Assembly (NCBI GenBank): GCA_027310575.1
Contig: DAIDAO010000036.1
Coordinates: forward strand, 1-35,123
DNA: 35,123 nucleotides
Source: a bacterium
GTDB lineage: Archaea > Thermoproteota > Nitrososphaeria > Nitrososphaerales > Gagatemarchaeaceae
Direction of reading: 5' to 3'
This document shows, one piece after another, positions 6,801 to 13,143 of this stretch. A model generated the notes under the pieces. That model did no database searches, had not been told where the DNA came from, and saw nothing but the letters and a program-made list of their open reading frames with translations. Positions within the stretch are counted from its first letter, which is position 1; each line of letters opens with the position of its first letter. The translations under genes and the position numbers were made by a program.

Positions 6801-7319
6801 GTGGTGAATCAGGTGAGCGAAGACAGGCGAAAGGACCTCCGGGACATGCTGGACGAGCTGGACGAGTACATCGAGAACTTCCAGAAGGAGATGGAAGAGT
6901 CGGTCAAGAAGAGCATCCTGGGCGCGAAGCAGTCGGTGAAGCCCTTCGTGGCAGGGTTCTCCTTCAACCTCGGGCCAGAGGGCAAGCCCTCCGTCCAGAC
7001 GTTCGGGAACAGCCCGATCGGCGGGGACGGGTTCAGGTCCCCTATCAACGAGCAGGTGGTGGACGAGAAAAGCGGCACGCTCCGGCTGCTCCTGGAGATG
7101 CCTGGGGTGGAGAAGGAGGACATCAGGGTGGAGGCCACTGAGGACACGGCCGTAATCACTGCGGAAAACGAAGGGCGCAAGTACCGAGCAGAGCTGGGGC
7201 TCAAGAGCCCGGTCAGATCGGACAGCGGCCGGGCCGAATACAAGAACGGGATCCTGGAGATTTCGTTCTCATTGAAGGACAAGGCTAATAAGGGCTTCAG
7301 GAAGGTAAACGTTGTCTGA
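6801..7319 (+). CDS. hsp20: Hsp20 small heat-shock protein
   Basis: Small heat-shock chaperone of 172 aa that holds unfolding proteins in large oligomers. The alpha-crystallin domain runs from about residue 75 to the end, with LLLEMPGVEKEDIRVEA, an NGILEISFS block and a short C-terminal extension. The N-terminal third is helical and acidic (ELDEYIENF). GTG start at 6801, or GTG at 6804, only a few nt after the predicted transcription start. The 3' end overlaps the start of cdc48 by 8 bp, so the chaperone and the unfoldase are one transcript. Confidence 0.93.
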   Translation: MVNQVSEDRRKDLRDMLDELDEYIENFQKEMEESVKKSILGAKQSVKPFVAGFSFNLGPEGKPSVQTFGNSPIGGDGFRSPINEQVVDEKSGTLRLLLEMPGVEKEDIRVEATEDTAVITAENEGRKYRAELGLKSPVRSDSGRAEYKNGILEISFSLKDKANKGFRKVNVV

Positions 7320-9531
7320 GAGTGGCTCTGGAGTGAGTCAGCAGCAGGTCCAACTGAAGGTCCTCGAAGCTTACACGCGTGACGTCGGCAGAGGAGTGGC
7401 GAGGATAGACTACGACGCCATGGACGCGCTCGACGCGTCGACTGGCGACGTCATAGAGATCAAGGGGAAGCGGCGGACTGTCGCGAAGTGCCTCCCTCTG
7501 TATCCGTCCGACGAGGGTAGGGGCATAGTGAGGATCGACGGGCTGATCAGGAACAACGCCGGGGTGGCCATAGGCGACGTCGTGGTGGTGAAGAAGGTGA
7601 AGGCCCCGCCGGCCGAGAAGGTCGTCGTCGCGCCGCTCGAGGCGGTCCCGCCTATCGACGAGCGATACCTTGCCGACGCCTTGGAGAGCGTCCCGGTGAC
7701 GAAGGGGGACAACATCATGATCCCATACTTCGGCGGAAGGCTGACCTTCCAGGTCGTGGGCGTGAGCCCGGTCGCCGACGCGGCCCTCATAACTCAGCGG
7801 ACTGTGTTCGTCATCTCCGAGAAGGGCGAGGCCCTGCGCGGGGTCCCGCAGGTCACGTACGAGGACATCGGCGGGCTCAAGGACGAGATACAGAAGGTGA
7901 GGGAGATGATAGAGCTCCCGCTCAGGCACCCGGAGATTTTCGAGAAGCTCGGAGTGGAGGCGCCGAAGGGGATACTCCTCTACGGCCCGCCCGGCACCGG
8001 GAAGACCCTGCTGGCGAAGGCCGTGGCCACCGAGAGCAACGCGCACTTCATCCCGATAAGCGGCCCCGAGATCATGAGCAAGTTCTACGGCGAGTCGGAG
8101 GCCAGGCTCCGCGAGATCTTCAAGGAGGCCAAGGAGAAGGCGCCGACCATCATATTCATCGACGAGATCGACTCGATAGCGCCCAAGAGAGAGGAGGTGA
8201 CGGGCGAGGTCGAGAGGAGGGTCGTCAGCCAGCTGCTCTCGCTCATGGACGGGCTGGAGGCGCGCGGAAAGGTCATCGTGATAGCGGCGACCAACAGGCC
8301 GAACGCCATCGACCCCGCGCTCAGGAGGCCGGGGAGGTTCGACAGGGAGATCGAGATCAAGGTCCCGGACAAGAAGGGAAGGCTCGAGATCCTCCAGATA
8401 CACACCAGGCACATGCCGCTCGCGCAGAACGACGACAAGCACGGCGCCGTCGAGGGGATTGTTGACATCGAAAAGCTGGCCGCCGTAACTCACGGATTCG
8501 TGGGTGCGGACCTCGAGTACCTTTGCAAGGAAGCTGCGATGAAGACGCTTCGAAGGAACCTCCCGGACATCAAGCTAGAAGAGGACAGGCTAAGCCCGGA
8601 GACTCTGGACAAGCTCATAGTCACGATGGGGGACTTCGAGGGCGCGCTGAAGGACGTCATGCCGTCCGCGATGCGCGAGGTCTACCTGGAGACCCCAGAC
8701 GTCAAGTGGGCCGACATTGGCGGACTGGATGGAGTAAAGAAAGAGCTGCAGGAGGCGGTCGAGTGGCCGCTGAAGTACCCGGACCTCTACGACAAGATAG
8801 GATACATGATGCCCAAAGGGATCATGCTCTACGGCCCGTCAGGGACAGGGAAGACCCTCCTGGCGAAGGCCGTCGCCACAGAGAGCGAAGCGAATTTCAT
8901 CAGTGTAAGGGGTCCTGAGCTCCTCAGCAAATGGGTGGGAGAGTCCGAGCGCGGGATCAGGGAGGTCTTCAGGCGCGCCCGGCAGGCGTCCCCATGCGTG
9001 ATATTCTTCGACGAGGTGGACGCCCTCGCCCCGACGAGGGGGATGGGCGGAGACAGCATGGTGACAGAGCGTGTCGTCAGCCAGCTCCTCACCGAGCTGG
9101 ACGGCGTCCAGAGCCTCCAGGGGGTCGTGGTGCTCGCAGCAACCAACAGGATAGACATAGTCGACCCAGCCCTCCTCAGGGCAGGGAGGTTCGACAAGCT
9201 CGTGCAGATACCCCTCCCGGACAAGCCGGCAAGGAAGGAGATCCTGAAGATACACACGAAGGGGGTCCCGATCGCCAAGGACGTCGACCTGGACAGGATA
9301 GTGGACATGACGGAGGGGTTCAGCGGGGCCGACATGGCTTCGCTCACGAACACCGCAGTCTCCATCGTCCTTCAGGGGTTCATTTCCAGGTACCCGAAGC
9401 CAGACGACGCGAAGAAGCACGTCGACGAGGCCGTGGTCGGGATGGAGCACTTCGCGGACGCGATCAAGAAGGTCAGGTCCTCCAGGGAAGGGAAGCCCAT
9501 GGAGAAGGTCGCGGTCCCCTACTACCGATAG
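7312..9531 (+). CDS. cdc48: CDC48/VCP-type AAA+ ATPase
   Basis: Archaeal CDC48 (VAT, p97 homologue), 739 aa, a hexameric unfoldase that feeds substrates to the proteasome. The N-domain (about 1-185) precedes two AAA modules. D1 has Walker A GPPGTGKT near 225 and DEID. D2 has GPSGTGKT near 508, with Ser where Pro is common, and FFDEVDA. Arginine-finger regions follow. The last residues, VPYYR, have the penultimate Tyr expected of an HbYX-like proteasome-docking tail. TTG start at 7312 overlapping hsp20; a GTG at 7333 would remove seven residues and is a fair alternative. Confidence 0.97.
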
Positions 9532-9543
9532 GCTCAGCCCGCT

Positions 9544-10518
9544 TTACGGCTCGGTGCTCTCTGGGGTCGGTGACTGAACCCCCCGACCGCGATCCTGCGG
9601 CGCCCCGTCGAGGAACCTCTCCCAGTACTGCGCCTCTATCGTCAGCCGCCTGGCCACGTCGACCGGGTGCTTGACTATCCCGTCCAGGGCCCCTCCCAGC
9701 TCCTTCTCGTGGAGGTCGGCTATGTAGCTGAGGGAGATGCCTTCGGTGTTCATGAGCTTCTGGACGCGGCTGGTCGCGTAGGCCTGGCTCTGCTTCAGCG
9801 CCTCCATCGTCTCGGCGTCTGCGAACGCGCTCGCAAGGAAGATTAGGTCCCCGCTCCTGATCATGGCCTCGAGGTCGAACCCCCTCCTCTTGACGTACGA
9901 ATAGACGTAGCTGGCGGGGAGGAGGTCCTCCCGCCCCATGATGGAGAAGATCGTCCTTCCTTCGGGCTGCTTCACGACCCTGTGCTTCTCGGCTATCGCC
10001 TTCCTGAGGTCGACGAGGGCGACGAAGGGCATCACGTACTGGTAGTCCTTCCTCAGCGCCTTCGTCAGCCTGCTCCGAACCCAGACCTTCAGGTCCTCCT
10101 GCGTCTTAAGCTCGGCCGGGGTCCGGGACGGCGGGAGGACCCAGACGTTGCTCTGGAGCAGGACGAACCCGGCCCCGATCAGCCTGTCCCTGATCTCGAG
10201 GGAGGCCTTCTTCTTGTACTTCTCCATGAACCGCAGCAGCAATATGGCGTTGAGCGGCCTGTCGTAGTGCCTGAGCAGCTCGTCGGTGGTTACGCCTGTC
10301 GCGTCGAACTGGTGCTGGATCCTCCTCATCAGCCTTCGGAAGTCGTCCTCCCGCCTGGCTTCCCTGCTCCCGTCCTCGGGGGCTTCGGGCTCCCCCTCGA
10401 CGGGTATCCTGTCGATCAGGGCAGCGATGATCTCGTCTTCGCCCCTCTTCCTCATGAGGGGCTCGACGCTCTTCCTGAAAGGCTTCACGAACCTTCCGAA
10501 CAGGTCGAAACCTGGCAA
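9544..10518 (-). CDS. Unknown 324-aa protein of the tubulin/vWA module
   Basis: Family not recognised. The first 25 or so residues (MPGFDLFGRFVKPFRKS...) form a basic amphipathic helix of the type that can bind membrane surfaces, followed by an acidic linker (about 45-60) and a mostly helical body. No enzymatic motif is evident, though a mixed region near GRTIFSIMGREDLLP and GDLIFLASAFADAE suggests a folded domain. The C-terminus is polar and probably disordered. It is the third gene of a minus-strand set: tubulin-like GTPase, coiled-coil protein, then this gene 47 bp later. A role as membrane anchor or adaptor for the GTPase is inference. It converges on cdc48 with a 12-bp gap. Confidence 0.75.
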   Translation of the reverse strand: MPGFDLFGRFVKPFRKSVEPLMRKRGEDEIIAALIDRIPVEGEPEAPEDGSREARREDDFRRLMRRIQHQFDATGVTTDELLRHYDRPLNAILLLRFMEKYKKKASLEIRDRLIGAGFVLLQSNVWVLPPSRTPAELKTQEDLKVWVRSRLTKALRKDYQYVMPFVALVDLRKAIAEKHRVVKQPEGRTIFSIMGREDLLPASYVYSYVKRRGFDLEAMIRSGDLIFLASAFADAETMEALKQSQAYATSRVQKLMNTEGISLSYIADLHEKELGGALDGIVKHPVDVARRLTIEAQYWERFLDGAPQDRGRGVQSPTPESTEP

Positions 10519-10565
10519 GCTGGCCTCACCTCTCGCGCCCCTCGGTCACGGGCGAGCCCAGGCCT

Positions 10566-11126
10566 CTAGCGGGGTCTCCACTGTCTCGGTCCAAGCTTGA
10601 GCGCCACCGTCTTCCGGATCTTCGAGAAGGCTTCGACGATCTTCTGCTTCGCGAAGTATTCGTCCACCTCCTCCACCACCATCCTGTCGGGCCAGATGAC
10701 CACCCCGTCGATCGCAAGGGGGGAGGGGAGCCCCAGGATGTCGCTGAGAGCTTCGAGCGTCTTCGGATAGGTGGCGTTGAACCTGTACTGGAAGGTGAAC
10801 CTCTTCCCTTCGGCCGTCGGCTCCGGCTCGAGGGGGACGATCAGCTCCGATGACGAGAACCCCTGCAGGAGGATCTGACGGGCCTTGTTCGCCGCCTCGG
10901 CGGCCTCGGCCTTCTCCTTGACGAGCTGCACCTCCCTGTCCTTCGACCGCGAGGGCTCCTCGTAGTTGAGGCCTATCAGCGCGTAGAACTGCCTGTCCTT
11001 GTCGGACCGCCTCGGCTGCTCCTTGAGCTCGCGCTGCACCTGCGTGAGCTCGGCTTCGAGGTTCGAGAGCCTCTTCTTCTGCTCTATGAGCTCGCCTGCG
11101 ACTACCTCGACCTCTGACAGGTTCAC
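10566..11126 (-). CDS. Coiled-coil protein of the tubulin/vWA module
   Basis: A 186-aa protein of unknown family. Residues 1-95 are rich in heptad-like Leu/Glu/Lys patterns (LIEQKKRLSNLEAEL, then VKEKAEAAEAANKA), predicting a coiled coil with a central break around GLNYEE. The C-terminal 90 residues look globular, with a YRFNATYPKTLEALSD stretch and a second acidic helix near VEEVDEYF. The start lies 7 bp after the stop of the tubulin-like gene, implying co-translation and probably physical partnership. A structural or bridging role is inference. Confidence 0.78.
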   Translation of the reverse strand: MNLSEVEVVAGELIEQKKRLSNLEAELTQVQRELKEQPRRSDKDRQFYALIGLNYEEPSRSKDREVQLVKEKAEAAEAANKARQILLQGFSSSELIVPLEPEPTAEGKRFTFQYRFNATYPKTLEALSDILGLPSPLAIDGVVIWPDRMVVEEVDEYFAKQKIVEAFSKIRKTVALKLGPRQWRPR

Positions 11127-11133
11127 GGCAGGG

Positions 11134-12501
11134 TCACCCCAGATGGCCGGTGACGTCCAGCACGGCCTGCTTGAACTCTTCGTGCGACAGCCCGCGCTTC
11201 TGATACTCGTCCTTGTACGACTCCCACGCGTCCTCCGCCTCTGCCACGAGCGGGAGGATCTTCTTCCCCACCGCCTTCACGTTCAGCAGGATGCACGCGG
11301 ACGCAGGCTCACCCTCCATGGCAGGGACCTTGATGAACACCAGCCTCTTGTCCGGGATCTCGAACTTTTCCTCGAGGAGGCGTTTGAAGTACTCCCTCTG
11401 CTCCGCGGTTATCGAGCCCTTCGTCTTCAGGATGATGCACGCAGAGTCGCGCGGCCCGGCCTCCACCTTCTCCCCCTCGGGGGCCACGTCGAAGAGGATG
11501 CCCTGGTTCCCCTGGCTGATGTTCTGCTCTATCGAGTCCATGGTCGGCCCCCCTCTCGGCACGAGCGGTATGAGCCAGGGGATGACGAACTTCGGCTTCC
11601 CTGCGGCCAGCCATGTCCTGAAGTTGGACATGTCCCATTCCGTCTCCCTGATGAACGAGTTCATGAACTCCGCGATCGCGTGGGCGGCGAGGAGGTTCAT
11701 GTCCCGGTAGTCCCTCCACCCCACCTGGATCTGCCTGGGGAGCTCATCGACTATCGAGCTCCTCCCCCTCAGACGGTCTGCGAACAGCGACGCCTGCTTC
11801 CTCAGCTCCGAGTTCTCCATCAGGATCGGGGCGTCGGAGTATTTGATCTGGTGGGCCAGGCTCATCACTATGCTGATGTGCGAAGCCCCGTGTATCACCG
11901 GGTCCCACCCGAACTCTGGGATCGTGGCGAAGCTGGCGATCGTCGCCTGCCCGAGGTTCTCCTCTTCCTTCATGTAGCGCATGAACTCCGAAGAGAACGA
12001 GCCCCCCGTCCCTCCTCCCATGCTGAAAGGAAGGATGAACCCCCTGACCGGCTCAGGGGATATCCCCCTTATCCTCGAGGCCAGGTCCTGCTTCTGCTCT
12101 ATCTCCTTCTGGAACCTCGTCCGTCCCTCGGCCCAGTTGCGCGCAGCCCCCCCGAGGCCGTAGACCGCGTGCTTGTCCCTCATTGCGAAGAGCTTCGGGT
12201 AAGATTGGAGGATGAGATTCGCGGAGCGCGGGTCGAGGTCGACCAGGAGCGCCCTGGGGACAAGCGGAGTCTCCCCCCTCTTGAGGGAGGCACCGAACCT
12301 CAGGATCGTGCTCCCGTACCTCCTCAGGACCTCGAGCTGCTGCTTCTCGCCCTTCAGCGTGGGCGCCTTCGGGTCGGCCCCGACGTCGATCAGGACCCAC
12401 CTGTACGCTTCCGCGCCTATCCCGACCCCGGCGTGCCCCATCGACGCTATGATCACGGGGTTAGGCGCAAGCGGTGCCTGCTTCAGGACACCGTAAGACA
12501 A
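11134..12501 (-). CDS. Tubulin/FtsZ-superfamily GTPase, divergent
   Basis: A 455-aa tubulin-superfamily protein. In order, the sequence shows a Gly-rich first loop GHAGVGIGAEAY, a strand ending in LLVDLDP (compare tubulin VDLEP), YGLGGAARNWAEGR (compare the tubulin GNNWAKG region), and the GTP-phosphate signature loop SMGGGTGGSFSSE (compare GGGTGSG) near residues 165-177. The C-terminal half has a strand-rich domain, and the protein ends in an acidic helix. FtsZ is usually shorter, about 350-400 aa. The VDLDP and NWAEG features look more tubulin-like than FtsZ-like. TTG start at 12501, about 26 nt from a TATA-like element, so leaderless. It heads a three-gene operon and is divergent from a vWA gene. 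Candidate relatives are the divergent FtsZ-like families and artubulins; which one is unresolved. Confidence 0.85.
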   Translation of the reverse strand: MSYGVLKQAPLAPNPVIIASMGHAGVGIGAEAYRWVLIDVGADPKAPTLKGEKQQLEVLRRYGSTILRFGASLKRGETPLVPRALLVDLDPRSANLILQSYPKLFAMRDKHAVYGLGGAARNWAEGRTRFQKEIEQKQDLASRIRGISPEPVRGFILPFSMGGGTGGSFSSEFMRYMKEEENLGQATIASFATIPEFGWDPVIHGASHISIVMSLAHQIKYSDAPILMENSELRKQASLFADRLRGRSSIVDELPRQIQVGWRDYRDMNLLAAHAIAEFMNSFIRETEWDMSNFRTWLAAGKPKFVIPWLIPLVPRGGPTMDSIEQNISQGNQGILFDVAPEGEKVEAGPRDSACIILKTKGSITAEQREYFKRLLEEKFEIPDKRLVFIKVPAMEGEPASACILLNVKAVGKKILPLVAEAEDAWESYKDEYQKRGLSHEEFKQAVLDVTGHLG

Positions 12502-12520
12502 CGGCGCGGGAGACGAGAAC

Positions 12521-12540
12521 TTTCTTATTATGTATTTAGA
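12521..12540. promoter_or_regulatory. Divergent promoter of tubulin-like and vWA genes
   Basis: An A/T-rich block (CTTATTATGTATTTAG) stands in GC-rich surroundings between two divergent genes. On the minus strand, ATAATAAG is centred about 26 nt from the TTG start of the tubulin-like gene. On the plus strand, the TATA-like sequence would start a transcript at about 12554-12561. An AAGGAG at 12551-12556 may assist the vWA start at 12571, although the spacing is long. Confidence 0.6.
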
Positions 12541-12570
12541 TTGGCCACCGAAGGAGCGCAGACAGAGCAG

Positions 12571-13143
12571 ATGTCCCTAAAGTTGGCCGAGGCTGAAGAC
12601 AGGCTCTACATGATAGACGGCTCCCGAAGCATGAACGAGAGGCTGGGGAGGGAGAAGCTCAGCAAGGTCGGCGCAGTCAAGCAGACCCTGATGGACTTCT
12701 GCAGCGACAACTGGCAGGCGTCCTACTATACGTGGCCCCTGAGGATAGGGATCACCGGCTACAGGCTCCTCGGCACCCCGGGAAGGACCGCCTTCGAGGA
12801 GATAATCCCGCTCGACCCGGAGCCCGTCAGCCTCGAGCTCTGGCGGCTCAGGGAGTTCTCTGGGAGGGGGGGAGCGATAATCAGGGACGCCCTGGTCAGG
12901 GCCATGGAGATACTGAGAGAGTCTCCGAGAGGGAAGAGGAAGCTCGTGCTCATCGGGGACGGCGGGGACGCGGGGCCCGACCCGGGCGAGGAGGCGCGGG
13001 AGCTAGGGAAGCTCGGGGTCGAGGTCCTGATCGTGGAGCTCGGGGAGTATTCGAGCCACCCGATGCGGGTGGTTGCGAAGGAGTCCGGGGGCAAGTACCT
13101 GCTGGCGAAGACGCAGGATGAAGTCAGGAGGTTCATCCTCTGA
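12571..13143 (+). CDS. Von Willebrand factor A domain protein
   Basis: A single vWA domain of 190 aa. The metal-ion-dependent adhesion site is present: DGSRS matches DxSxS near residue 16, and LIGDGGDAG supplies the later MIDAS Asp. Conserved hydrophobic strands (RKLVLIGDGG, VEVLIVELG) support a Rossmann-like vWA fold. It has no signal peptide or membrane helix, so it is cytoplasmic. ATG at 12571 is preferred; TTG at 12541 would add ten residues. It is divergent from the tubulin-like gene across a shared promoter. Association of vWA proteins with FtsZ-like GTPases has been described for a predicted membrane-remodelling system, so functional linkage is plausible. Confidence 0.85.
   Translation: MSLKLAEAEDRLYMIDGSRSMNERLGREKLSKVGAVKQTLMDFCSDNWQASYYTWPLRIGITGYRLLGTPGRTAFEEIIPLDPEPVSLELWRLREFSGRGGAIIRDALVRAMEILRESPRGKRKLVLIGDGGDAGPDPGEEARELGKLGVEVLIVELGEYSSHPMRVVAKESGGKYLLAKTQDEVRRFIL

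Follow-up and report, generated by a model that had tools for sequence, protein, structure and literature searches.

An artubulin with a constant coiled-coil partner and an altered T7 loop in a four-gene block of the Gagatemarchaeaceae

The sequence analysed here (GCA_027310575.1, contig DAIDAO010000036.1, positions 1-35,123; this whole stretch is referred to as the window) belongs to a member of the Nitrososphaeria, family Gagatemarchaeaceae, and thus to a relative of the ammonia-oxidising archaea. Three genes follow each other on the minus strand: a 455-aa GTPase that is almost certainly an artubulin (11134..12501, TTG start), directly downstream of it a coiled-coil protein of 186 aa (10566..11126, GTG start), and, as the third gene of the run, a 324-aa protein (9544..10518, TTG start). 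The gaps between them measure 7 bp and 47 bp, respectively. A gene for a 190-aa vWA-domain protein (12571..13143, plus strand, ATG start) diverges from the artubulin gene, and the 69 bp separating the two (12502..12570), with an A+T-rich centre (TTTCTTATTATGTATTTAGATT), are presumed from the sequence to be a promoter region shared by the three-gene run and the vWA gene. The longest plus-strand frame (10999-13143) overlaps the GTPase gene, and only its part from the ATG at 12571 represents the vWA gene. All four reading frames were thus located as described in the initial annotation, with a co-directional run of three and a divergent vWA gene. In none of the four protein families does hydrophobicity reach a transmembrane-like level (maximum mean over 19 residues, 1.7). 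The G+C content of the four genes equals that of their neighbours, and their GC3 (0.88-0.90) resembles that of the CDC48-like and LysS genes on either side (0.86 and 0.90). With this composition, and with neither a plasmid match for the coiled-coil protein nor a phage match for the artubulin, an origin from a mobile element or phage was rejected, as was a role in anti-phage defence, for which PADLOC gave no match.

The artubulins, archaeal relatives of the eukaryotic microtubule protein, are a tubulin-like family of Nitrososphaeria that received its name from Yutin and Koonin in 2012 (PMC3349469). The assignment of the GTPase to this family is based on both similarity and gene neighbourhood. 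In a Pfam search, Tubulin (PF00091, E = 8.3e-13) was the only significant match, with none to other FtsZ-type families such as FtsZl1/Tubulin_2. A profile built from 17 relatives was run against the PDB and against FtsZ proteins. The Asgard tubulin AtubB was the best among the PDB matches listed (8.6e-22, 80.8 bits), gamma-tubulin reached 2e-14 (56 bits), and the best 60 PDB matches listed were all tubulins. FtsZ proteins of other Thermoproteota scored at most 2.7 bits against the same profile, and the genome's own FtsZ scored -3 bits. Judged by profile similarity, this artubulin lies closer to the tubulins of eukaryotes and Asgard archaea than to FtsZ; according to PMC13394414, the placement of artubulins in the superfamily tree is not settled in published work. 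The protein consists of an N-terminal tubulin GTPase domain and a C-terminal half for which no sequence match to solved structures, including tubulin, was obtained. In total, 80 relatives with 47-76% identity were found, essentially all of them archaeal and from Nitrososphaeria/Thaumarchaeota where named. One locus labelled Gammaproteobacteria bacterium BBSC-SA02 (L060) has a Nitrosotenuis-like artubulin locus and probably stems from a mislabelled or contaminated assembly. In four Nitrosarchaeum loci (L066, L069, L070, L073), the homologous protein is 51-53% identical to that of the window over residues 7-450. In Nitrosarchaeum loci, the gene lies downstream of a Snf7 (ESCRT-III) gene (PF03357, 31.6 bits, cut-off 27.3) and a dCMP deaminase. 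Since this corresponds to the neighbourhood of artubulin described in PMC3349469, these loci identify the window GTPase as an artubulin.

The loops GHAGVGIG, VDLDPRSAN, ARNWAEG and GGGTGG, previously interpreted as those of the tubulin superfamily, are all present and conserved in relatives, and the tubulin match in the profile searches supports this interpretation. T1 (GHxGxGxG), T3 (DLDPR[A/S]AN) and T4 (GGGTG) are kept nearly throughout the artubulin relatives, and with loops T1-T4 intact, artubulin is predicted to bind GTP. The T7 loop is a different matter, as it reads EWDMSN (ExDxxN) in the window and in 80/80 relatives. This motif is paired by hhalign with NLDFAD of FtsZ (match probability 49%, E = 1.8e-4), and by this mapping the catalytic acid of the T7 loop (NxDxx[D/E]) is replaced by asparagine in the window protein, where it is Asn293, and in all 80 relatives. 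In tubulins, the second T7 acid activates hydrolysis across the subunit interface, with E254 in alpha-tubulin, while K254 of beta-tubulin blocks it (PMC13394414). Because the hydrolysis-promoting acid of FtsZ and alpha-tubulin aligns with an invariant asparagine, self-activated GTP hydrolysis by artubulin is doubtful and may have been lost.

The coiled-coil gene is the constant adjacent partner of artubulin. In all 76 intact loci out of 80 it is the next gene after artubulin; the remaining four were left out of the intact count because their contigs stop no more than about 160 bp past the artubulin gene. Among 398 genomes sampled evenly across the phylum, 23 encode an artubulin, and all of these likewise have the coiled-coil gene adjacent and on the same strand. 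The AlphaFold2 model (pLDDT 87) predicts a long helical hairpin (residues 3-51 and 60-91) followed by a C-terminal alpha/beta domain (104-178), for which no PDB fold match was found (best E 0.3). No Pfam family fitted the protein either, and weak matches of single family members to Mis12, Spc24 and HMMR were taken as chance. An identity with Snf7 was also rejected, because the Snf7 protein of Nitrosarchaeum is encoded by a separate upstream gene. Fragments of the coiled-coil gene with stop codons occur in two artubulin-free genomes of the Nitrosopumilus-type family (G303, G386). Homologues are moreover found without artubulin in seven genomes of two other families. They are of full length in one of these (f40; L113 5116-5766, L115 5073-5663, L116 2304-2894) and short in the other, where proteins of 123-138 aa correspond to the C-terminal part (L117 5016-5429, L118 5142-5558, L119 5180-5551). 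The full-length homologues are flanked by a radical-SAM-like gene on one side and a small conserved gene on the other, with archaellum-like genes close by, and the short homologue of L118 adjoins genes for an EMG1/NEP1 methyltransferase and RNase P Rpr2. With this occurrence in two artubulin-free families, the coiled-coil protein is not exclusively an artubulin cofactor, and we consider that it may be the missing working partner of artubulin where the two occur together.

The 324-aa gene was found in the window's family only, as the third gene of the run in 16 loci, and in 15 of 33 family genomes. Its product has a basic amphipathic N-terminus of about 20 residues, a central domain (approximately residues 92-170) and a helical C-terminus. 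The central domain probably is Cas2-like: PaaX_M was matched in 12/12 family members (best E 2.3e-4), with the window copy scoring below the curated cut-off, and a Foldseek search of the structural model (pLDDT 71) returned Cas2 folds with probabilities of up to 0.97 at E > 0.09. A helix-turn-helix was not recognised in the protein. The two downstream partners had both been described as not recognised, which still applies to the sequence and fold of the coiled-coil protein, but no longer to the 324-aa protein with its probable PaaX_M domain. The amphipathic N-terminal helix also proposed for the latter fares well in the window protein, whose N-terminus is its most amphipathic segment by hydrophobic moment (0/306 windows higher; shuffle p = 0.002), but the signal is weaker in relatives (p = 0.01-0.10). 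The first ~20 residues of the model have low confidence (pLDDT 40), which would fit a helix that forms on contact with a membrane; taken together, the amphipathic N-terminus is weakly supported.

The vWA gene is divergent to artubulin in 18 loci. Its family profile matches vWA structures, and the window protein, to which a MIDAS-type vWA domain had been assigned, contains the DxSxS motif and the Asp (DG) loop. Its third MIDAS ligand position is occupied by Ala102, where nearly all relatives have serine, and its Pfam VWA match (E = 0.0014, score 19.3) falls below the cut-off of 23.8. A lone relative of this vWA protein (34% identity; L161 4738-5310) is encoded in genome G480, which has none of the other three genes.

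Whether the four genes belong together was assessed in the 33 genomes of the window's family, grouped into 15 artubulin-positive and 18 artubulin-negative genomes. The 324-aa gene is present in 15/15 of the former vs. 0/18 of the latter, the coiled-coil gene in 15/15 vs. 1/18, and the vWA gene in 14/15 vs. 1/18. The pattern is broken by a vWA gene that stands alone, by a coiled-coil gene lying at the edge of a contig, and by a fragmentary genome in which no vWA gene is present. Co-occurrence is significant when relatedness is ignored (Fisher p = 1e-9 to 3e-7); only three phylogenetically independent contrasts are available for the 324-aa gene, all of them consistent (p = 0.25). On a LysS tree, the module must have been gained or lost four times. 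In the window, as in G472 from another genus, it is flanked by the CDC48-like and LysS genes. The corresponding site is empty in the complete genome G338 of the same genus as the window, where LysS follows the CDC48-like gene after ~60 bp and all four genes are missing from this interval. In other genomes, the block lies near the genes for glutamyl-tRNA synthetase and nucleoside diphosphate kinase with its internal order unchanged, so that an identical four-gene order is found at two different chromosomal sites. In G488, the 324-aa gene is kept on another contig away from the module, which indicates that the co-occurrence is not merely a by-product of linkage. Hence, in the window's family the vWA and 324-aa genes are present, absent and relocated together with the artubulin/coiled-coil pair as a block. 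The initial annotation had proposed a single module. The linkage of a tubulin-superfamily GTPase to three genes that are its neighbours in related genomes too agrees with this proposal, but all four genes together are a feature of the window's family alone, and across the order only artubulin and the coiled-coil gene are general. The CDC48-like gene was rejected as a module member because most relatives have it next to LysS while lacking the module. The CDC48-like protein of the window (7312-9531) is 93% identical to that of G472 from the other genus and ~81% identical to that of G338 from the same genus, hinting at a transfer or conversion of this region together with the module.

From these features we propose a working model, to which we assign a probability of roughly 45% as a whole, in which the coiled-coil protein organises a GTP-bound and slowly hydrolysing artubulin polymer and the 324-aa and vWA proteins anchor or regulate it. 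Artubulin would bind GTP and assemble into protofilaments, and since the residue inserted across the subunit interface in place of the acid is an invariant asparagine, these polymers would remain in the GTP-bound state, or turn GTP over slowly, as long as the missing group is not contributed by another protein. As a cofactor, the coiled-coil protein would nucleate the polymer, cross-link or bundle it, or complete its interface. The 324-aa protein could tether the assembly to the membrane via its amphipathic N-terminal segment, a tether to nucleic acid via the Cas2-like domain being the less likely option, and the vWA protein might serve as a cytosolic, metal-dependent adaptor modulating assembly. 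The outcome would be an accessory cytoskeletal scaffold. An essential function in division is unlikely because close relatives lack all four genes and because the genome encodes a separate FtsZ and has a weak Snf7 match elsewhere. More tentatively, artubulin could be an obligate two-component cytoskeleton that has lost self-activated hydrolysis and depends on the coiled-coil protein, a previously unnoticed protein of unrecognised fold, and to which a family-specific membrane or nucleic-acid adaptor and the vWA protein were added in a transferable four-gene cassette.

Other explanations have to be weighed against this model. The functional unit could comprise artubulin and the coiled-coil protein only, the sole genes conserved across the order, with the 324-aa and vWA genes being incidental or regulatory, for example through a PaaX-type transcription factor that controls the operon. 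That PaaX proteins are repressors fits this idea, but the four genes co-occur across the 33 genomes of the family, including where the 324-aa gene lies apart from the module, and we regard a pair-only unit as unlikely. The prediction by Yutin and Koonin that artubulin acts with ESCRT-III (CdvB) in division or scission, with the partners found here replacing or recruiting CdvB, derives its appeal from the Snf7 gene directly upstream in Nitrosarchaeum-type loci. Such a cluster is, however, present upstream in only ~7 of the 80 artubulin loci, the genome analysed here has no Snf7 gene beside the module and a single weak match on another contig, and close relatives without any artubulin presumably still divide, all of which makes this explanation rather improbable. 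DNA segregation by a TubZ/TubR-like system, with artubulin as the motor and the Cas2/PaaX-like protein as a nucleic acid-binding adaptor instead of a membrane tether, would account for the PaaX_M and Cas2 fold matches, and the gain and loss of the block resembles that of a mobile cassette. This scenario seems improbable indeed, as the module is chromosomal and located among core genes, the plasmid and phage comparisons mentioned above were negative, no helix-turn-helix was recognised, and most artubulin loci yielded no 324-aa gene.

Least credible, to the point of being nearly dismissed, is the membrane-remodelling system of FtsZl1 and vWA proteins described by Makarova and Koonin, to which the locus had originally been linked. 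A tubulin-superfamily GTPase adjoins a vWA gene with a DxSxS motif in the window, and vWA genes occur in most FtsZl1 operons (PMC2875224). Nevertheless, the comparison fails because FtsZl1 proteins differ in domain plan and partners. The window GTPase is an artubulin, hence from a different subfamily, that matches Pfam Tubulin and no other FtsZ-type family, its nearest solved structures are tubulins with FtsZ at background, and the 455-aa protein lacks the extended in-chain coiled coil and alpha-helical domain of FtsZl1. The kinase, P-loop GTPase and OmpA companions of FtsZl1 are absent as well, and the vWA family identified here was not found beside artubulin in most of the artubulin family.

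Artubulins as such are already known (PMC3349469, PMC3835317, PMC9871819 and PMC13394414). Compared with the published Nitrosarchaeum and Nitrosotenuis proteins (PMC3349469; PMC3835317), the window artubulin belongs to the same protein family and is homologous over residues 7-450 at ~52% identity. Both have intact GTP loops and come from the same archaeal order, and a downstream coiled-coil gene is common to both. The neighbourhoods differ in the upstream Snf7 gene of the Nitrosarchaeum type on the one hand, and the divergent vWA gene and the downstream gene with its probable Cas2-like domain on the other. The Asgard tubulins AtubA/AtubB (PMC13394414; PDB 24rt, 9f6t) provide the best structure match (8.6e-22), limited to the GTPase domain; unlike these, the window has no tandem tubulin paralogues, its T7 residue is asparagine instead of glutamate or lysine, and its C-terminal half is unmatched. 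FtsZ of the thaumarchaeal Nmar_1262 type (PMC3684127) belongs to the same superfamily, and FtsZ and artubulin are both encoded in this genome. Its FtsZ gene is located separately on contig 47 (L124 3907-4929) and has the loop GLGGATGSG instead of GGGTGTG; an altered loop is also found in the thaumarchaeal FtsZ that reportedly does not polymerise. According to the available text of PMC9871819, coiled-coil genes of unknown function surround archaeal tubulin-like genes in general, with Snf7 alone named for artubulin. In the accessible portion of the artubulin literature since 2013, we found no statement of the coiled-coil gene as a constant partner, nor any mention of the four-gene form or the invariant T7 change, and the module itself thus appears to be new.

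No function for artubulin was found in the accessible parts of the literature on this family, whose bearing on the origin of eukaryotic tubulin has been debated since 2012. A partner beside every intact artubulin, together with the invariant loss of the T7 acid, makes this a defined pair of proteins that can be expressed and tested, and close relatives with empty sites allow a natural presence/absence comparison for the four-gene cassette. Finally, in Nitrosotalea and other lineages the position just upstream of artubulin is often taken by a small gene with a common N-terminal motif (e.g. L029 7536-7835 and L077 6145-6837). Some of these genes encode zinc-ribbon and membrane segments, and they possibly represent another lineage-specific artubulin partner.
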